Assembly (NCBI GenBank): GCA_001602455.1 | Contig: CP012157.1 | Coordinates: 739,733 to 803,732 of the forward strand | Origin: Betaproteobacteria bacterium UKL13-2 | GTDB taxonomy: Bacteria > Pseudomonadota > Gammaproteobacteria > Burkholderiales > Usitatibacteraceae | Direction of reading: 5' to 3' | Length of the DNA stretch: 64,000 nucleotides | Shown: positions 801-56,485 of the stretch, one piece after another | How the letters are laid out: each line of letters opens with the position of its first letter | Position numbering within the stretch: the stretch's first letter is position 1 | Made by a program: the position numbers and the translations under genes | Notes under the pieces: model-generated | Databases searched by the model: none | Told to the model about the DNA's origin: nothing | What the model saw: the letters and a program-made list of their open reading frames with translations, nothing else

Positions 801-1868
801 TCAGGACGTTCTAGCGCTGGCAAGGTGAACCGCGTTAACGAGTGTTTCTACGTGCGCCGGATCGGTAAATTGTGAAATTCCGTGACCTAAGTTGAACACA
901 TGCCCGTCGGCGTTACCGTCGAAGGCGAATTCGCGCAAAACGCGGCGAACTTCCTGTTCAATCGTGGCTGGTGGGGCAAACAGCGCAGATGGATCCAGAT
1001 TGCCTTGTAGAGCCACTTTGCCGCCCACCCGACGCTTTGCGTCCGCAAGGTCAATCGTCCAATCGCAAGCGAGAGCATCAGCACCCGAATCAACCATTGA
1101 TTCGAGCCATAGGCCGCCGCCTTTGGTGAAGAAAATGCGCGGCACGATGCGGCCGTCAGCCGTTCGCTTCAAACCCGCCATGATTTCCTGGACGTATTTC
1201 AACGAAAACTCTTTGTAGGCGCTGTGGGACAACATGCCACCCCACGTATCGAACACCATTACCGCTTGTGCGCCGGCATCAATTTGCGCGTTTAGATAAT
1301 CAATCACGCTCTGTGTATTCTTCTTCAGAATCGTATGCAGCAGGTCAGGCCGACGGAACATCATCGTCTTCGTGAGACGAAAATCATCGGAGCCACCGCC
1401 TTCGATCATGTAACAGGCGAGGGTAAACGGGCTGCCCGAGAAGCCAATGAGTGGCACCCGCCCGTCCAGCGTCTTGCGGATTTGCGAAACCGCATCAAAC
1501 ACATACTGAAGCGACAACATGTCGGCGACGGGTAGTCGGGCGACATCGTCTTCATGCCGGATCGGACGCTCAAACTTCGGCCCCTCGCCTTCGGCGAAAT
1601 AGAGGCCGAGTCCCATTGCATCAGGAATGGTCAGGATATCTGAGAACAAAATTGCAGCATCAAGCGCATAGCGATCCAATGGCTGGATCGTCACCTCGGT
1701 GCAGTAATCCGGATTTTTCGCGAGCCCTAAAAAACTTCCCGCTTTCTTTCGCGTCGCGTTGTACTCCGGCAGATATCGGCCCGCCTGACGCATGATCCAA
1801 ATCGGTGTGTATGGGGTAGGTTCGCGCATCAAGGCGCGTAGAAAAACGTCGTTTTTTAGTGTGGACAT
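801..1868 (-). CDS. hemE: Uroporphyrinogen decarboxylase
   Basis: HemE removes the four acetate carboxyl groups of uroporphyrinogen III to give coproporphyrinogen III in cytosolic heme synthesis; it needs no cofactor. The signature [11 protein letters not shown] lies at residues 26-36, with the arginines that bind substrate carboxylates, and [17 protein letters not shown] follows in the first half. I start it at the ATG of MSTLKNDVF (1866-1868), which gives 355 aa, the usual HemE length. A longer frame reaches 1907 but adds 13 residues of unrelated character. The C-terminus has the family's [12 protein letters not shown] motif. It lies 68 bp downstream of gltD on the same strand, so co-transcription with gltBD is possible. 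Confidence 0.95.
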
Positions 1869-1936
1869 GGCGTAAGTAAAAATGGCGCGACCGACTGGCC
1901 GCGCCACCGCATTATGTCATTGGCGGGCTAAAAACT

Positions 1937-3400
1937 TTAGCGCGGTAATTCTGACGCGCCCATTAGGTATTCATCGACCGAGCGTGCGCATTGCCGACCT
2001 TCGCGAATGGCCCAAACGACTAACGACTGCCCCCTTCTCATATCGCCCGCGGCGAAGACTTTTGGATTTGTCGTCTGGTAGGCCATCGTGCCTTCTGTTA
2101 CCGCCTTTACATTCTGGCGCTGATCCTTTTCGACGCCGAGCGCGGCAAACTGTTCGAGCAGCCCATTCTGCGTTGGCGAGATAAACCCCATCGCCAGTAG
2201 CACTAAATCTGCTTTCATTTCAAACTCAGAACCGGGTACTTCTTGCATCTGCATTTGCCCCCCCTGGTCTTTCCATTCAACGCGCACCGCGACGATCTTT
2301 TCAACGGCGCCGTTGCTGCCGATGAACCGTTTGGTGGCAACCGACCAATCCCGTTCGCAACCTTCTTCATGGGACGACGATGTACGCAACTTGATGGGCC
2401 AATATGGCCAAACCGAGGGCTTATCTTCGTGCTCGGGGGGCATGGGCAGGAGTTCAAACTGTGCAATAGAGGCGGCACCATGACGATTCGATGTGCCCAC
2501 GCAGTCGCTCCCCGTATCGCCGCCGCCTATCACCACGACGTGTTTACCGGTTGCCATGGTTTGCCCTAGGATATTGTCACCCGCAACCACCTTGTTTTGT
2601 TGCGGCAAAAAGTCCATCGCGAAATGTATGCCCTTAAGATCGCGGCCTGGCACCGGAAGGTCGCGCGGTTGCTCTGCACCGCCTGCCAAGATCACCGCAT
2701 CAAAATCGGCCATCAGTGCCGAAGCGGGCGTCGCGTCCGCCAAATCCGCGCCTATATGCTGGCTGAGGCGAAACTGAACACCTTCGGCTTGCATTTGCGC
2801 GACGCGACGATCAATGTGTGATTTCTCCATTTTGAAATCAGGGATGCCGTAACGAAGCAGGCCCCCGATACGGTCATTCTTTTCAAATACGATGACATCG
2901 TGCCCGACGCGCGCTAACTGCTGCGCAGCCGCGAGTCCCGCCGGGCCGGAACCGACGATGGCGACACGCTTTCCGGTTCTGCGTTTGGGTGGCTGCGGAA
3001 CAACCCAGCCCATCTCCCAACCCTTGTCGATGATTGCGTGCTCAATCGACTTGATGCCGACCGCATCATTGTTGATGTTGAGTGTGCAGGCGGCCTCGCA
3101 CGGGGCGGGGCACACGCGGCCAGTGAACTCAGGGAAGTTATTGGTCGAGTGAAGTGTATCCAGCGCTTCTCGCCAGTTTTGGCGGAACACCAAATCGTTG
3201 AAGTCGGGGATGATGTTGTTGACCGGACAGCCGGATTGGCAGAACGGAATGCCGCAGTCCATGCAGCGAGCGCCTTGCGTTTTGGCGTCTTCGTCCGACA
3301 AATGCAGCACAAACTCTTGGTAGTTCTTGATGCGTTCTGCCGTTGGCAGCGCTGGCTCGCGAAGACGGTCGAACTCTTTAAACCCTGTGACTTTTCCCAT
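1937..3400 (-). CDS. gltD: Glutamate synthase small (beta) subunit
   Basis: GltD takes electrons from NADPH through FAD and Fe-S centres and passes them to GltB for glutamate formation. The 487-residue protein has the expected order. Cysteine clusters lie at residues 46, 49, 54, 58 and at 97, 101, 105 ([23 protein letters not shown]), binding two 4Fe-4S clusters. The FAD-binding GSGPAGLAA is at about 150-158 and the NADPH-binding GGGDTGSDC at about 290. Near the C-terminus is the [16 protein letters not shown] segment typical of this family. It sits 60 bp downstream of gltB, so the pair should be one operon. Length and motifs are normal. Confidence 0.97.
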
Positions 3401-3460
3401 TTGCTGTTTTCTCTACGAAGCGTTCGTTTTTGGTGGTGTGACGCGGAAGCCGTTAAACGA

Positions 3461-6400
3461 CTAAGCCGCTTTTTTCTTTGGCGACGACGATTTTTTTGCC
3501 GCGAGTTCCTGTAGTGCGCGGCGGTACTCTGTCGGCATCACTTTCACAAATTTAGGCAGCCAGACAGCCCAGTTGGCCAAGATGGCTTTGGCGCGTTCGC
3601 TGCCGGTATAGCGGGCGTGATGTTCGATTAGCGACATCAAGATATCGATATCGGCTCGACCTAAATGACTGTCAGGCCCCGCCTTATCTTCCAATGCCTC
3701 GAGCGCGACCATCGACAAGTTGCATCGCTGCGAAAATCGCCCGTCTTCATCGAGTACATAGGCGACGCCGCCAGACATACCGGCTGCAAAATTTCGGCCA
3801 GTCGCCCCGAGGACGACGACCGTACCACCCGTCATGTATTCGCATCCGTGGTCGCCCGTTCCCTCAACAACTGCCGATGCACCTGAATTCCGCACGCAAA
3901 AGCGCTCACCCGCCACGCCGCGGAAATACGACTCACCTGACGTGGCGCCATACATTACGGTGTTGCCTACAATGATGTTTTCGATCGGGTCACCCTTGAA
4001 TCCCGCATTTGGTTTGACGATGATCTTGCCGCCGCTCAAGCCCTTACCAACATAGTCATTAGCCTGGCCGGTGAGATCAAGCGTGACGCCATGCGCCAAG
4101 AACGCACCAAAGCTTTGTCCTGCGGTGCCGCTCAATTTCACAGTAATAGTGTCGTCTGCCAAGCCGGCATGGCCGTAGCGTTTGGCGACTTCGCCGGACA
4201 ACATGGCACCGACAGTCCGATTCAGATTTCGAACCACAGTGGTGATGGTGACTTTTTCTTTCTTATCCAGTGCGGGCGTCGCCTCGGCAATCAATTTGTT
4301 ATCGAGCGCCTCAGCGAGGCCGTGGTCTTGGGTTTCGTTGTGCAATCGTGAGACATCTTGCGGCATTGCCGGCATGTGGAAAATCTTGGCGAAGTCCAAA
4401 CCCTTTGCTTTCCAATGACGGATGCTTTTGGCGGTGTCGAGCAAGTCTGCCCGGCCGATCAACTCGTTAAATGACCGCACGCCCAAGCTTGCCATGATTT
4501 CGCGCGCCTCTTCCGCCACAAAGAAGAAGTAATTCACGACATGTTCTGGTTGGCCGGAGAATTGCTTGCGTAACGCGGGGTCCTGAGTTGCGACGCCTAC
4601 CGGGCAGGTGTTGAGATGACACTTTCGCATCATGATGCATCCTTCCACCACGAGCGGAGCGGTCGCAAAACCAAATTCATCCGCGCCGAGAAGCGCGCCA
4701 ATCACGACATCACGCCCCGTTTTGAGTTGGCCGTCAACTTGCAACGCAATGCGGCCTCGCAGCCGGTTCAGCACGAGCGTTTGTTGTGTTTCAGCCAGTC
4801 CCAATTCCCACGGGGTTCCAGCGTGTTTGATCGACGAGACTGGTGAAGCGCCGGTGCCACCATCGTGGCCGGCAATGGTCACATGATCCGCTTTCGCTTT
4901 TGCCACCCCGGCTGCGACCGTGCCGACGCCGACCTCGGAGACCAGCTTGACGGAAATCGATGCGGCAGAATTGGCGTTCTTCAAATCGTGAATCAGTTGT
5001 GCTAAGTCTTCAATGGAATAAATATCGTGGTGCGGCGGCGGCGAGATAAGCTCAACACCAGGCGTTGAGAACCTGAGCCGACCAATGTACTCGGAGACTT
5101 TGTGTCCCGGTAGTTGTCCACCTTCACCGGGCTTGGCACCTTGCGCCATCTTGATCTGGATTTGATCTGCCGACTGCAAATATTCCGCAGTGACGCCGAA
5201 GCGAGCCGATGCAACTTGCTTAATCTTGGAGCGAAGTGAATCACCTTGCTGTAGTTTGATGTCGGTCACGACGGCATCGCCAAGGGTGGATTTCAGCGTT
5301 TCGCCGTCTCGCTGAATGGGAATAAAGCGTTTCGGGTCTTCACCACCCTCGCCGGTATTCGATTTGCCGCCAATACGATTCATCGCAATCGCAAGCGTCG
5401 CATGCGCCTCAGTCGAGATCGATCCCAACGACATGGCGCCCGTTGCAAAACGCTTCACAATTTCCTTTGCAGGCTCAACGTCATCCAACGGCACTGCAGG
5501 GCCGAGCGGCTTCAACTCAAACAATCCGCGTAACGTCATGTGGCGCTTCGATTGATCGTTGATGAGCTTTGCGTATTCCTTGTAGGTCTCATAGGAATTC
5601 TTACGAGTCGAATGCTGTAGCTTCGCGATTGCGTCTGGCGTCCACATGTGTTCTTCGCCCCGCACGCGGTAGGCATATTCACCACCGGCATCGAGTTGCG
5701 TGCGTAGCACCGGATCATCGCCAAATGCCTTTTTGTGCAGACGCATGGCTTCTTCGGCAATCTCAAAAATACCAATACCCTCGACATTCGATGCGGTGCC
5801 AGAGAAGTATTGACTGATGAAGGCTGACGACAGGCCGACGGCTTCAAATATCTGTGCACCACAATAGCTTTGATAAGTCGAAATGCCCATTTTGGACATC
5901 ACCTTCAGCAAGCCCTTGGAGACGGCCTTGATGTATTTTTTCTCAGCCTCTTCTTGATTGTAGTCGCCGAGGTAGTCATGCAGATTGTGCAGTGTTTCTA
6001 ATGCAAGGTAGGGGTGGACTGCGGCTGCACCGTATCCGCCGAGCAACGCGAAGTGGTGGACTTCACGCGCAGAACCTGTCTCGACGACTAACCCGGTCGA
6101 TGTACGAAGACCTTTACGTACTAAGTGTTGGTGGATGCCAGCAACCGCTAACAGCGCGGGGATGGCGACTCGTGCCGCGTTCACTTTTCGGTCGGAAACG
6201 ATCATCAGATTGAAGCCAAGCCGGATCGCATCTTCTGCCCTTGCACAGAGGCTCGCCATGGCAGCTTCGATGCCTTCTGGCCCCCACGGTGCTGGGTAAG
6301 TAATGTCGAGCTCTTCGCTCCTCAAATATCCACCCGTGAATAATTCGATATGGCGGATTTTTTCCATGTCCGACGTGGTGAGGACAGGCTGTGGCACTTC

Positions 6401-17149: not shown

Positions 17150-17405
17150 TTGACGAAAGTTTACCATTTTGAATAGGTCAAAATGACCGCGTGGGTGCTG
17201 GGGTGTTTGGGTGCCCTTGCGCTCTTGTGTCCTTGCGCCCTTGTGTCCTTGTGCCCTTGTGCACCAGACCTTACGCCCCAGACCTTACGCATCGAGTGGT
17301 ACATCAACGTCGCATCGCGGTTCACCGCTCTTTTTACAGCGCGGTGAAGTATTGCTACAGTTGTTTTGACACAGTTTCTGCCACGCAGACGCCCAGCCTC
17401 CCCAT

Positions 17406-17448
17406 GTCATTCCGACAGAGCCCATCGGGCGACGAGGAATCTCATCCG
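17406..17448 (+). repeat. Half-copy of hairpin repeat family C
   Basis: GTCATTCCGA followed by CGAGGAATCTCATCC matches the left arm of the units in the 54023-54702 array. The right arm (GGGATGAGATCCC...CGGGATGAC) is missing, so this is a truncated or decayed copy. Confidence 0.65.
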
Positions 17449-17464
17449 TCTGTACCTGCCCCGC

Positions 17465-17572
17465 GTTTGTATCCGCGTTTGTATCTGCGTTTGTATCTGC
17501 GTTTGTATCTGCGTTTGTATCCGCGTTTGTATCTGCGTTTGTATCTGCGTTTGTATCTGCGTTTGTAGCTCG
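17465..17572. repeat. 12-bp tandem repeat, nine units
   Basis: The unit GTTTGTATCYGC occurs eight times plus a diverged ninth. The Y position runs C,T,T,T,C,T,T,T, giving a higher-order period of 48 bp. Both strands are open in several frames because 12 is a multiple of three, but there is no start with a ribosome site and no domain. I treat it as non-coding. Confidence 0.9.
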
Positions 17573-50194: not shown

Positions 50195-51216
50195 TGCGGC
50201 TATCGCGCAAGATAATGGCAACCGGTAGCCCCCTCGCGCTTGCGGTGGGCAATTTTGACGGCGTGCATCTCGGACACCAAGCCATCCTGCGTGCGACGAT
50301 GCGGGCGGCTGAACGGTTTGGTCTATCCGCCGCCGCGCTGACCTTCGCGCCGCTGCCCCGCGAGTTTTTTGCGTCCCGACAAAACAATCCTGCATTAGCG
50401 CCACCACGGCTGATGAGTGTGAGTGAGAAGTTGATCGCCTTTGCCCAGACAGGACTTGAACATGTATTTGTGCCACGATTCGATGAACGTTTTTCCAGCC
50501 AGTCGCCAGCCGACTTTCTGCAATCGTTGAGAGCGGCTGACGTGCGTTGGATGATGGTCGGCGACGACTTTCGGTTTGGCGCAAAACGTAGTGGCGATGT
50601 CGGCTTGATGCGCCAGTTCGGCGCCGCTCATGGGATCGAAGTGGCAACAATGGCGGATGTTGTCACTGCGGGTAGCGGTGTGCGGGTTTCATCATCGGCC
50701 ATTCGAGAGGCATTGGCGGCGGGCAGACTCAGCGCCGCAGCGGAAATGCTCGGCAAGCCCTACGCCATCACAGGACGCGTTACACACGGTAAAAAACTTG
50801 GTCGCACCCTTGGCTTCCCAACGGCGAATGTTGCCCTATCGGGACGAAAACCTGCCTTGGCGGGCGTGTTTGCAGTAAAATGCAGACTTGTAACTCGCGG
50901 GCTCGAGGGAGTGGCCGAGTTAGGAAAATTCGATGTTGGCGAAGTCTTGAATGGGGTCGCCAACCTCGGCACGAATCCGGTGGTTTCTTCAGAAAACCGC
51001 CCGCATTTGGAAGTCTTCCTCTTCGATTATTCGAGTGATCTGTACGGCAAACGCGTTCAGGTGAGCTTCATCGAGAAAATCCGCGACGAACAAAATTTTG
51101 CGAGCTTGGATGGGCTCGTCACGCAGATGCATGACGACACGGCACGCGCCAAAAAAATCTTGTCACGGATGAATCCAGATGGAAGCGCCAAAGAAGGACT
51201 ACAAGACCACCCTTAA
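50194..51216 (+). CDS. ribF: Bifunctional riboflavin kinase/FAD synthetase
   Basis: RibF makes FMN and then FAD from riboflavin. The FAD synthetase domain starts at [19 protein letters not shown] (nucleotidyltransferase HLGH motif) and includes [12 protein letters not shown]. The kinase domain starts at [20 protein letters not shown] (about 190) and ends with [12 protein letters not shown] start at ATG 50194, overlapping the murJ stop by 1 bp; GTG 50191 is an alternative. The last 38 bp overlap the ileS start. Confidence 0.96.
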
Positions 51217-54004
51217 CCTGACCGACACGCCGTTTCCCATGCGCGGGGACTTGGCGAAGCGCGAGCCAGGTTGGGTTGCTGCCTGGCAACAAAACAAGCG
51301 ATACGAAAAAATTCGCGAGGCAAAAAAAGGCAAGCCAACGTTCATCTTGCATGACGGCCCGCCGTACGCCAACGCGGCCATCCACATCGGCCACGCAGTT
51401 AACAAGATTCTGAAAGACATCGTCGTCAAATCCAAATTGCTGGCGGGCTTTGATGCGCCATATGTGCCGGGCTGGGATTGCCATGGCATGCCGATCGAAA
51501 TCTTCGTTGAAAAACAGCATGGCAAAAATTTGCCAATCGAAAAACTCATGGGATTTGCGCGCGCACACGCCGAATCTCAGATCGATTTGCAACGTACCGA
51601 CTTTATGCGCCTCGGCGTATTGGGCGATTGGTTCAATCCGTACAAGACGATGAACTTTGCCACCGAGGCCGCAGAGATTCGCACTCTTGGCAGACTGTTT
51701 GAACGCGGTTACGTCTATCGCGGCTTGAAGCCGGTGAACTGGTGTTTTGACTGCCAGTCGGCGTTGGCGGAAGCGGAAGTCGAATACGAAGATAAGACCT
51801 CCACCGCCATTGATGTTGGGTTCAGATTGGCCGATGGCGAGCAGGCAAAACTCGCTTCCGCGTTTGGATTAGCTAAGCTACCGGACGGGGAAATCTTTGC
51901 GGTAATTTGGACCACCACACCGTGGACGATTCCCGCTAATCAGGCGCTCAATATCCATCCTGACTTTGAATATGCGTTGGTCGCCACGCCACGCGGCGTC
52001 ATCATCATTGCTGCGGCACGCGTGGAAGCGTGCTTGCAAACCTACGGCCTTGAAGGAAATATCGTTGCGACGGCCGTCGGTACAAAGCTGGACAAGATCG
52101 TTTTCAGGCACCCCTTCTATGACCGTGCATCACCCATGCACCTGGCTGAATACGTGACGCTCGATACTGGCACGGGCATCGTGCACTCGTCCCCCGCCTA
52201 TGGTGTTGACGACTTTGCGACCTGCAAGAAATACGGCATGACCAACGAAGAAATCCTCAACCCGGTAATGGGCAATGGTCAATACGCTTCGACCTTGCCA
52301 CTGTTCGGCGGCTTGAACATCTGGAAAGCGCAGCCAGAGATTGTAAAAACCATTGAAGGCGCGGGCGCACTGTTTCATACGACGCAGTTCAAACACTCAT
52401 ATCCACATTGTTGGCGTCATAAAACACCGACGGTGTTTCGTGCAACTTCGCAGTGGTTTGTAGGGATGGATCGTATCGGCACCGGCGACACGAAGTCACT
52501 TCGCGAATTGGCGTTGGATGCGATCAGCGCGACGAATTTCTACCCTGACTGGGGGCAGGCGCGTCTGCACGGCATGATTGCCAACCGGCCTGATTGGTGT
52601 ATCTCGCGTCAGCGAAAGTGGGGAACGCCTATCCCGTTTCTGTTACATCGCGAAACGGGCGAACTTCATCCGAAAACGCTGGAAATTCTTGGGAAAGTTG
52701 CGGCGCGCGTGGAGCAAGAGGGGATCGAAGTCTGGCAACGCATCACCGCCGAAGAATTGCTCGGCACAGAGGCAGCCGACTACGAAAAATCCGGCGACAC
52801 GCTGGATGTTTGGCTCGATTCTGGCGCGACATTCAACACGGTGCTGGCCACCACCGAATCGCTATCGCGGCCGGACGATCACGGCAAACCTGCGCAGGCC
52901 GAACTCTACCTCGAGGGTTCGGACCAACATCGCGGATGGTTCCACTCCTCTTTGCTGGTGAGTTGTGCGCTCAACGGACGTGCGCCTTATAAGAGTTTGC
53001 TGACCCATGGATTCGCGGTCGATGGACAGGGCAAGAAGATGTCGAAGTCACTTGGCAATGTAGTGCTGCCGCAGAAAGTGTCTGATACGTTGGGCGCGGA
53101 GATCTTGCGCCTGTGGGTGGGCTCAACCGACTACTCCGGCGAGTTATCGATTTCAGACGAAATCTTAAAGCGCGTGGTGGAAAGTTATCGACGCATTCGA
53201 AATACCCTGCGCTTCCTGCTCGCCAATACGTCGGATTTTGACTTCGCTAAGGATGCTGTTTCCGTTGACACTATGCTCGAATTAGACCGCTACGCAATTG
53301 CGATGATGGCCGAATTGCAAACAAAGGTGCTGGCAAATTACGACAAGTATGCGTTTCAGCCGGCGCTGCAAGATATTCAGTCGTTCTGCTCCGCAGACCT
53401 CGGCGGCTTCTACTTGGATGTAATTAAGGATCGGTTGTACACCACCAAGGTTGATGGCGTACCGCGACGTTCCGCGCAAACTGCGCTACATCATATTTTG
53501 CAAACCCTGAATAAGTTGACCGCGCCGGTCCTGTCGTTTACCGCCGAAGAAATTTGGGAAACGCTACATGCAGGCAAAGACGATAGCGTTTTTTCTCACC
53601 AGTACCACGAGTTGCCAGAGGTGTCCGGGTCTTTGTCGCTGTTGGCGCGGTGGGCAGTGTTGCGGCAATTACGAGCGGACGTGTTAAAGAAAATCGAATC
53701 AGAGCGTGAAGCTGGTCGTGTCGGATCTTCCCTCCAGGCAGAAGTCACGCTAACGGCGACACCGGCACAGTATGAACTGCTTGCAACGCTGGGGGATGAG
53801 TTACGCTTCGTGCTGATCACGTCTTCGGCCACGTTCACGGCGGGCGCTGGGGCGCGAATTGACATCACGCCAAGTACGCACAAGAAATGTGATCGTTGCT
53901 GGCACTATCGGGAAGATGTTGGGTCACATGCAGAACACCCGACGATCTGCGGTCGATGCATATCCAATCTCGACGGCTCCGGCGAAACAAGGCTATATGC
54001 ATAG
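51179..54004 (+). CDS. ileS: Isoleucyl-tRNA synthetase
   Basis: A 941-residue class I synthetase. The HIGH motif is [14 protein letters not shown] (about 56-69). The editing domain is recognisable by [15 protein letters not shown] and [18 protein letters not shown]. The KMSKS motif lies in [14 protein letters not shown]. The C-terminus carries the zinc-binding Cys set CDRCWHY...CGRC. The start ATG (51179) is 38 bp inside ribF, so translation is coupled. It is normally followed closely by lspA, but here a 666-bp gap filled by a repeat array intervenes. Confidence 0.97.
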
Positions 54005-54022
54005 TCCAACGCATTCACTATT

Positions 54023-54702
54023 TGCGATTCCGCGCCGCACTTGCGAGGAATCTCATCCAAGGCAATCACTGCCAATGTGTGCAGGGATGAGATCCCTCGA
54101 CCTTGCTCGGGATGACGACACTTTTGGGTTTGCCGGCATGACGCACAGCAAAAATCAATCTGGCAGCCGCTCAATAGTTGTCATTCCGAGCCGCACTGGC
54201 GAGGAATCTCATCCAAGGCAATTGCTGCCAATGTTTGCAGGGATGAGATCCCTCGACCTTGCTCGGGATGAAAACACTGTTGGGTTTGCCGGCATGACGC
54301 ACAGCAAAAATCAATCTGGCGGCCGCTCAATATTTGTCATTCCGAGCCGCACTGGCGAGGAATCTCATCCAAGGCAATTGCTGCCAATGTTTGCAGGGAT
54401 GAGATCCCTCGACCTTGCTCGGGATGACAACACTTCAGGGATGAGATCCCTCGACCTTGCTCGGGATGACAACACTTCAGGGATGAGATCCCTCGACCTT
54501 GCTCGGGATGACGACACTTTTGGGTTTGTCGGTATGACCCACAGCAACAATCAATCTGGCAGCCGCTCAGTAGTTGTCATTCCGAGCCGCACTTGCGAGG
54601 AATCTCATCCAAGGCAATTGCTGCCAATGTTTGCAGGGATGAGATCCCTCGGCGTGGCGCGTCTGCCGGTATGACGCACAGCAAAAATCAATCTGGCGGC
54701 CG
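54023..54702 (+). repeat. Family C tandem array between ileS and lspA (156-bp units, 42-bp subunits)
   Basis: Four tandem units with a 156-bp period: the shared GAGGAATCTC starts at 54045, 54201, 54357 and 54597. The third unit is longer by two extra 42-bp copies of AGGGATGAGATCCCTCGACC... (starts 54395, 54437, 54479), so 240 = 156 + 2x42. Each unit contains a large imperfect hairpin: GTCATTCCGAG...GAGGAATCTCATCC pairs with GGGATGAGATCCC...CTCGGGATGAC. Each unit also ends with ATGACGCACAGCAAAAATCA or a close variant, the same sequence that opens lspA. A long frame reads across it from inside ileS but is only translated repeat. Confidence 0.93.
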
Positions 54703-55192
54703 TTTGACGTGGCTACGTTGGCTCTGGATCAGCGTGGTTGTTGTCGCCTTGGATTTGTCGACGAAGTATTACTTTGACACCACGTTTACCTACGGTGAGA
54801 CGCGATACGTGACGCCGTTCTTCAACTGGGTATTGGTCTACAACCCGGGTGCCGCATTTAGCTTTCTTGCCAATGCGGGCGGATGGCAGCGAGAGTTCTT
54901 CATCGTTGTCACGCTCGTGATTACGAGTGGATTGCTGTGGCTACTTAAGAGCAATGAATACAACCGGCTGCTGGGTGGGGCGATTTCACTCATCATCGGC
55001 GGTGCGCTTGGCAATCTTTTTGACCGTGTTGTTCACGGACACGTCATCGACTTCATCCAACTTCATGTTGCCGGCTACTACTGGCCGGCGTTTAATGTCG
55101 CGGATTCGGCGATTTGTATCGGTGCCGGTCTGCTCGTCTGGGATGCGATTCGGCAGCCGAATGGCAAGCAGAAAGAAGGCCAAGCCTCGTGA
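54671..55192 (+). CDS. lspA: Lipoprotein signal peptidase (signal peptidase II)
   Basis: A 173-residue inner-membrane aspartyl protease with four helices that cleaves prolipoproteins before the modified Cys. The catalytic Asp residues are in GNLFDRVVHGHVIDFI and FNVADSAI; NPGAAFSFLA is the family's substrate-facing loop. The likely start is ATG 54671 (MTHSKNQSGGRLTWLRWLW), which lies inside the last repeat unit, so the first ten residues are repeat-derived. Another in-frame start exists at 54593, also in repeat. The two large Ig-like lipoproteins here are expected substrates. Confidence 0.93.
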   Translation: MTHSKNQSGGRLTWLRWLWISVVVVALDLSTKYYFDTTFTYGETRYVTPFFNWVLVYNPGAAFSFLANAGGWQREFFIVVTLVITSGLLWLLKSNEYNRLLGGAISLIIGGALGNLFDRVVHGHVIDFIQLHVAGYYWPAFNVADSAICIGAGLLVWDAIRQPNGKQKEGQAS

Positions 55193-55534
55193 TCGATTGG
55201 GCACAGGTGATCGGCGCGAATGGTCGTCCCCGCGCAGTATCGATGGAAAGGTGCAAAATGGATTTCGGCGATTGAGTTTGTCAAAAAATCGGCCAAGATT
55301 CTGGGAGGTGGCGACCACAACGATGCCGACATTTGGCAAGAAGCGCGTTTTGGTTTGCCTCCCCAAGATACTGAACAAGCATAGGAAAGAAAAACCCTCG
55401 CCTGAACATTTCATGGGGATGCGTTCGAAAGCGGGTCAGTAGGTGAACGGGCGACCCATGAAATATTCAGACTAGGTGTGGCCGCCATTTTGGGCGGAAA
55501 ATGCCTGAAAACGCGCTTCAATACGAGAGTTTTA
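55193..55534. other. lspA-ispH intergenic region
   Basis: About 340 bp. No gene is supported. It contains a compact family A element (55401-55470). The ispH promoter may lie here or transcription may run on from lspA. Confidence 0.5.
55401..55470. repeat. Dispersed repeat family A, copy 3 (compact, inverted ends)
   Basis: It begins CCTGAACATTTCATGGGG and ends CCCATGAAATATTCAG, an inverted repeat of about 16 bp, enclosing GCGTTCGAAAGCGGGTCAGT. It is the shortest two-ended copy and could fold as a single hairpin. Confidence 0.85.
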
Positions 55535-56485
55535 ATGATGAAAGACTCAGAAATTTTGCTATCGAACCCACGGGGATTTTGTGCCGGGGTTGATCGTGCC
55601 ATCGATATTGTTGAGCGCGCACTTCAACGCCATGGTGCGCCGATCTATGTGCGTCATGAGATTGTTCATAACAAGTACGTCGTCGATGATCTGCGTGCAA
55701 AAGGCGCTGTGTTTATTGAAGACCTCGCCGATGTTCCCCCCGGCGCGACGCTTGTGTTTAGCGCCCATGGCGTCTCGAAAGCCGTTCGGCGTGAAGCGCA
55801 ACAGCGCGGCTTTCAGGTGTTTGATGCCACCTGCCCGCTGGTCAAGAAAGTACATATCGAAGTCCTCAAGCGGCGTAACGAAGGCTATGAAGTGGTCATG
55901 ATTGGCCATGAGGGGCACCCGGAGGTGGAGGGAACACTTGGCCAATCAGATACCGGAATGTATTTGGTTGAGTCGGTTGAAGATGTGGCCAACTTAAACA
56001 TCGCCCACTCGGAGAAGTTGACCTATGTGAGCCAAACCACGCTCTCGGTCGATGACACACAAAAGGTAATCGACGCCTTGAAGGCCCGATTCCCGCATAT
56101 TGTGGGGCCGAAGCAGGACGATATCTGTTATGCGACGCAAAACCGCCAAGATGCGGTGAAGTTTATGGCACCGCTCGTCGAGGTTGTCATCGTTGTTGGG
56201 TCTCGCACGAGTTCGAATACAAACCGATTACGCGAACTGGCAGATTTGCTTGGATGTGAAACTCATCAAGTGGATAGTGCGGACGAATTGAAGCCGGAAT
56301 GGGTTGCAGGAAAAAAACGAATCGGCGTTACCTCGGGCGCGTCGGCACCAGAAATTTTGGTTCAGGATGTTGTCGCTAAACTAAAGTCACAAGGCGTGGT
56401 GAGCGTGCGTGAACTTGACGGAATTATTGAGACCATTACCTTTCCATTACCCAAGGGGTTAAACCGGGCGCAGCCAGCGGCCTAG
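55535..56485 (+). CDS. ispH: 4-hydroxy-3-methylbut-2-enyl diphosphate reductase
   Basis: The last enzyme of the MEP isoprenoid pathway, a 4Fe-4S reductase giving IPP and DMAPP. From ATG 55535 (MMKDSEILL) it is 316 aa, normal length; the frame from 55478 adds an unrelated N-terminus. The three cluster Cys are in [25 protein letters not shown] and [25 protein letters not shown] and [13 protein letters not shown] are conserved substrate-binding blocks. A family A repeat begins immediately after the stop codon. Confidence 0.96.

Follow-up and report, generated by a model that had tools for sequence, protein, structure and literature searches.

The interval between ileS and lspA in Betaproteobacteria bacterium UKL13-2 is filled by a tandem array of four units, each of which includes approximately 11 first codons of the present lspA. 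We consider it probable, though some way from certain, that a dispersed palindromic element inserted in the 5' codons of lspA and was amplified in tandem there, and that ileS, an open reading frame (ORF) through the array and lspA are now joined in a chain of termination-reinitiation. Positions refer to the window, i.e., the entire stretch of 64,000 nucleotides that was analyzed, unless stated otherwise.

A tandem array with four copies of the lspA start

The features of the region are as follows:

51179..54004, + strand: ileS, the upstream gene, 941 aa (ORF; Pfam PF00133, E 8.4e-130, and zf-FPG_IleRS; stop TAG at 54002-54004)
53997..54674, + strand: array ORF in the ancestral lspA frame, 225 codons; its ATG overlaps the ileS stop (TATGCATAG) and its stop TGA overlaps the lspA ATG
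54016..54171, + strand: unit 1, 156 bp, left edge diverged
54138..54169, + strand: lspA-start copy 1 (MTHSKNQSG..)
54172..54327, + strand: unit 2, 156 bp
54294..54325, + strand: lspA-start copy 2, identical to the present lspA start across 32 nt
54328..54567, + strand: unit 3, 240 bp, with a 42-bp half-element three times (54394-54519)
54534..54565, + strand: lspA-start copy 3, diverged (MTHSNNQSG)
54568..54703, + strand: unit 4, the last, 19 bp short, continuing into lspA
54638..54675, + strand: right arm of the element in the last unit; its end, GGTATGAC, includes the present lspA ATG (G000:C1:794370-794407)
54671..55192, + strand: lspA, 173 aa from the present ATG (PF01252, E 3.5e-41)

Between the end of ileS at 54004 and the present lspA ATG at 54671 lie 666 bp. 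The anchor GAGGAATCTCATCCAAGGCAAT recurs in this interval at 54045, 54201, 54357, and 54597, giving unit spacings of 156, 156, and 240 bp, and the lspA-start pattern GCCGGYATGACGCACAGCAA (up to 3 mismatches) has four sites in the 64-kb window compared to a mean of 0.01 in 100 shuffles. The ATGs of these four copies are found at 54138, 54294, 54534, and 54671, with spacings of 156, 240, and 137 bp. An earlier, sequence-only reading of this DNA held that every unit carries a copy of the lspA start, which is indeed the case, and that all units measure 156 bp, which applies to units 1 and 2 but not to the others: the 240 bp of unit 3 are made up of 156 bp and two extra copies of the 42-bp half-element, and unit 4 lacks 19 bp relative to the other units just ahead of the lspA start. 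TRF reports the same periods, with 2.6 copies of a 156-bp repeat at 54027-54434 and 3 copies of a 42-bp repeat at 54394-54519. Downstream of the start segment, lspA continues with TTTGACG and the array copies with CTCAATA or a close variant.

The Peptidase_A8 domain occupies residues 20-160 of the present LspA, and a search of this genome for lspA (E up to 0.001) gave this one match only. We also considered whether the array might be a known RNA family, and rejected this because a search of 53000-56000 against Rfam gave no match at the gathering score. No promoter-like and no terminator-like sites were found in 53900-54800, which carries little information since shuffled sequences yield just 0.6 and 0.7, respectively. 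The predicted fold of the last unit together with the start has an energy of -54.8 kcal/mol (z -1.69), and 14 of 200 shuffles were equally good.

In most relatives, lspA begins inside the end of ileS

The sequence-only reading took the ATG at 54671 to be the true lspA start and proposed to align the ileS–lspA junction in related genomes. This alignment points to a different ancestral form, namely one with an 8-base overlap (-8) between the lspA ATG and the ileS stop, as observed in all seven genus relatives with a readable junction (7 of the 12 had an LspA match, while G004, G006, G008, G010, and G012 gave none). In a first, larger set of relatives (34 matching genomes out of 41, one of them this genome; of the 33 relatives, 29 provided loci), ileS adjoins lspA in 28 of 29 loci, and 23 of these 28 have an in-frame ATG at -8 relative to the end of the ileS stop, the other five showing other arrangements. 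A second set of 49 loci contains the ATG at -8 in 23, another short overlap in 21 (ATG at -1 or -4, or GTG at -4, -8, or -14), and none in five. In this scoring the ATG at -8 was taken first if several starts were possible, and the two sets share several genomes, so their counts are not additive.

Judged from these relatives, the ancestral lspA start is 53997, overlapping the ileS stop, rather than 54671. An ATG is still present at 53997 in this genome, but its persistence is partly forced by the Tyr-Ala-stop ending of ileS (TATGC...), and thus its survival alone is no proof of its use. With the ancestral ATG retained, the array lies inside the ancestral 5' end of lspA and not in a spacer. The 666 bp reported to separate two normally adjacent genes are present, but the genes usually overlap in relatives and the array falls among the 5' codons of lspA. 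The N-termini of LspA from relatives are too diverged to prove that THSKNQSGGR represents ancestral lspA sequence.

The ileS–lspA junction has been broken independently in Dechloromonas sp. SSD3 (locus L103), where approximately 700 bp (about 3290-3990) separate the two genes and contain two small ORFs that appear toxin-antitoxin-like, by eye only.

A dispersed palindromic element

The element is a MITE-like palindrome with the layout GTCATTCCGAG...GAGGAATCTCATC...GGGATGAGATCCCTCG...CGGNATGAC, has a size of approximately 95 bp, ends in GTCATTCC/GGNATGAC, and has terminal inverted repeats (GTCATTCCGAG on the left, CTCGGGATGAC/CGGAATGAC on the right). Its exact core is found at 148 sites in this genome, at 10 in the relative G009, and at none in 11 other genomes of the genus, several of which are incomplete assemblies; from these counts, the expansion of the element looks recent and lineage-specific. 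By eye, no clear target-site duplication is apparent at lspA, and the echA junction described below was read to less than single-base precision. At 17405-17567 of the window, a lone left half of a related palindromic element lies close ahead of a 12-bp tandem repeat (GCGTTTGTATCT x 8.8).

Captured gene ends in other arrays

Two further arrays of this genome contain clear copies of a gene end:

L127, array at about 1566-3280 of the locus (G000:C1:2148500-2153500): between an mmsB-like and an echA-like gene
L128 (G000:C1:1708000-1713500): eight 291-bp units (TRF, 99% matches) at a POR/DUF6537 gene

The genes flanking the first array, which we take to be mmsB-like and echA-like, encode the domains NAD_binding_2 plus NAD_binding_11 and ECH_1, respectively. 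The array consists of eight units spaced 211-217 bp, and besides the gene itself it holds seven copies of the ~31 codons with which echA begins. Here, empty as well as filled orthologous sites are seen, which is not the case at lspA. G008 (92% EchA identity) has no element and a single base between the stop and the echA ATG; G007 (94%) has a different insert, likewise ending in GGAATGAC; and G009 (97%) has one element, albeit in a fragmented assembly in which near-identical repeats may collapse to one copy, a caveat that leaves the empty G008 site unaffected. The array segment next to the element is gene sequence and is found in the relative without the element. No frame is open throughout the echA array, and echA itself is still open, showing that arrays are tolerated without an arrangement of the lspA type.

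The last 87 nt of the POR-like gene recur in seven additional copies in the second array (six copies are listed, at 96.6% identity), and G009 has a single copy of the 287-bp POR segment in the same setting (L159). Similarly, a single matching pair of element arms is present in G009 at the place syntenic to L126; the caveat about collapsed repeats in the G009 assembly applies to both of these single copies as well. The proposal that a segment spanning an element and the 5' end of lspA was amplified in tandem is supported, with much the same process seen step by step at the mmsB-like/echA-like junction of this genome and its relatives. A single element between ileS and lspA was found in no relative, and we argue for the insertion step inside lspA by analogy with the echA site. 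The duplication junctions at lspA and echA, inspected by eye, share few bases at most; duplication by template switching, whether through microhomology or stimulated by a hairpin, and unequal exchange thereafter would fit this picture.

The check for captured gene ends covered 11 arrays (L122-L129, L141-L143) and was clear in the two described above. In the other nine, self-hits were absent, lay inside the array, or linked flanking ORFs that resemble each other; L125 has a 39-nt gene end (84.6%) that may be element sequence. L122-L126, L129, and L141-L142 are more large compound arrays of the same element group. Unit lengths in the further arrays include 81, 142, 194, 235, 244, and 275 bp as well as others, and some arrays extend over several kb of the 3.4-Mb genome.

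The array is open in the ancestral lspA frame

The frame of ATG 53997 is open for all 225 codons and ends at TGA 54672-54674, as ATGA with the ATG at 54671. It is the sole open frame of the array, the other five containing 11, 6, 8, 7, and 3 stops, and none of eight other arrays of the genome (665-3670 bp, seven of them longer than 1.5 kb) has a fully open frame. When the array was shuffled as non-repetitive sequence, 0.08% of 5000 shuffles were open. For one shuffled 156-bp unit, however, a given frame is open in 24-27%, and the repeat lengths of 156 and 42 bp are both divisible by three (52 and 14 codons), so that the open frame is suggestive but not decisive. Among the four lspA units, which differ at few positions, pN is approximately equal to pS without an excess of silent changes. 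Purifying selection on the repeat peptide was thus not seen, and it is probable that the encoded peptide as such is not selected. A marginal Pfam match of the array ORF to Transposase_20 (E 0.00032, 21.4 bits at a cut-off of 21.3) was taken as chance in repetitive sequence; no single stretch passes alone.

In the history that we favor, a palindromic MITE-like element would have inserted in the first lspA codons at a time when lspA began inside the ileS stop. Tandem duplication of a segment reaching from the left side of the element to about codon 11 of the present lspA would have followed, with growth to four units, and units of 52 and 14 codons would have preserved the openness of the ancestral frame. 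Ribosomes finishing ileS would reinitiate at 53997, the former lspA ATG, and make the 225-codon repeat peptide; upon termination at TGA 54672-54674 they would reinitiate once more, at the overlapping ATG 54671, yielding near-normal LspA. Given the -8 overlap, it is plausible that ancestral lspA was translated by termination-reinitiation after ileS, and we infer the same mode for lspA at present. By its stop/start overlaps, ATGCATAG at 53997-54004 and ATGA at 54671-54674, the array ORF begins in a -8 junction and finishes in a -4 junction, neither of which is disturbed if 52 or 14 codons are added. Both starts pair weakly with the anti-SD sequence (-2.8 and -3.7 kcal/mol), compared to -6.0 to -10.6 kcal/mol in eight relatives (11 were supplied, three of them without a junction match). 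Most other window genes scored (nine positions, one without a start codon) show similarly weak pairing, and these values therefore do not decide between coupling and independent initiation.

A serious rival, to which we would give somewhat less than an even chance, shares the same origin but holds that the array is only tolerated: ribosomes would start at ATG 54671 without coupling, and the openness of the frame through the array would be accidental. A repeat unit need be stop-free only once, and about one-quarter of shuffled units are open per frame. The apparent lack of selection on the peptide, the still open echA behind an array without a continuous open frame, and the weak anti-SD pairing of many window genes, by which a start at 54671 is possible, all point in the same direction. 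What speaks for coupling instead is that both repeat lengths are divisible by three and that the frame kept open is the ancestral one, ending exactly at ATGA. A more far-reaching version of the coupled arrangement is tentative and, on the whole, doubtful: the array might be a copy-number-tunable leader cistron with an element-donated start, and more generally an instance of recent element-driven array building from gene ends. With repeat lengths that are multiples of three and ATGA at the end of the last element, such a chain of coupling would remain intact as units are gained or lost.

The present lspA start codon lies in the element end

The present lspA ATG sits in GGTATGAC, which matches the right end of the dispersed element, GGNATGAC, suggesting that the element probably donated the present start codon and that the ancestral start was replaced. 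The right arm (GATGAGATNCCTC, 4-34 bases, GGNATGAC) occurs at 166 sites in the genome, many of which are array units and not independent insertions, and at none in the reversed control; among the sites listed, the lspA site alone reads GGT, the others GGA or GGG. Of the start segment, ATGAC is probably element sequence and the remaining ~27 bp probably lspA sequence. Within the searches described next, these ~27 bp turned up solely at lspA in this genome and nowhere in the 12 other genomes of the genus. With the 156-bp unit as query, this genome gave 143 matches at E up to 1 (of 60 candidate stretches, 40 were scored), and outside the lspA array none extended past position 96 of the unit; in the 12 other genomes, searched to E 0.001, none extended past position 103. 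The lspA segment is located beyond both positions. With up to 2 mismatches allowed, nine sites of the 15-mer GGCATGACGCACAGC lie outside the array, and the reversed control likewise gives nine. The first LspA residues of this organism are probably not homologous to those of relatives.

It has to be considered whether the entire MTHSKNQSG segment could be part of the dispersed element and was acquired by lspA upon insertion, an outcome that the sequence-only reading had named as contrary to its own explanation. Copies of the segment on elements at other sites were not found, although its ATGAC does fit the element end present at 166 places. With the remaining ~27 bp confined to lspA, and the equivalent echA segment being gene sequence, we regard this origin as improbable.

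Even less probable is a single long LspA initiated at 53997 and bearing a repeat-encoded N-terminal extension. The ancestral frame does lead into MTHSKNQSG or MTHSNNQSG in each of units 1 to 3, and with such a right end the array would at an earlier stage have been fused to LspA in frame, but the last unit, being 19 bp short, shifts the frame such that the ORF stops at TGA 54672-54674, ahead of LspA, and a fusion would now require frameshifting. Lastly, tandem arrays are error-prone and the genome is a single contig of unstated read type, but the array units differ mutually by substitutions and by defined length changes of 42 and 19 bp, making a simple assembly duplicate unlikely, and with comparable arrays at many other loci we find an assembly or sequencing artefact the hardest explanation to credit.

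Relation to known systems and significance

Rickettsia palindromic elements (RPEs) are described as in-frame MITE insertions in protein genes (PMC10969869). Like these, the lspA element is a small dispersed palindrome in frame within a host coding region, and the frame is kept open for 225 codons, yet it stops ahead of LspA. In further contrast to the RPEs described, the lspA element is tandemly amplified together with host coding sequence and is located at the extreme 5' end; its array closes with a stop codon that overlaps a new start codon, and conservation of the peptide among units was not seen. BrickBuilt, a MITE-associated minisatellite of Porphyromonas gingivalis, likewise combines a MITE-like element with a tandem array, but as described there it repeats a 23-nt internal unit that is flanked by a leader and a tail (PMC4596501), whereas the unit here is the element plus a flanking gene end and differs at the three loci that were read closely. 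PARCELs also are palindromic coding DNA in tandem repeats and are thought to be derived from the mobilome; in the account given, they encode a recognizable 25-residue domain, in contrast to the array peptide at lspA, which appears unconstrained and ends before the host protein (PMC2996958). REP and GTAG-tagged palindromes share with our elements their shortness and high copy number in one genome, but the elements here measure ~95 bp and end in GTCATTCC/GGNATGAC (PMC3733652).

Among overlapping gene pairs, the -4 (NTGA) overlap is reported as by far the most common and the -8 overlap as enriched (PMC12548453). The ancestral ileS–lspA junction (-8) and the junction of the array ORF with lspA (-4, ATGA) resemble such coupled pairs; what differs from the pairs in that report is the repeat-built ORF between the genes, by which one -8 junction has become a -8 plus a -4 junction. 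Relative to all of these analogues, what sets the array apart is a unit composed of an element and the adjoining gene end, and a new lspA start codon inside the element end.

For annotation, caution is advisable before the 225-codon ORF is called a gene. The stepwise picture of an empty site, a single element, and an array suggests how palindromic elements may turn gene junctions into arrays that bear coding sequence, and at lspA the start region seems to have been rebuilt from repeat DNA with the overlapping-gene arrangement kept.
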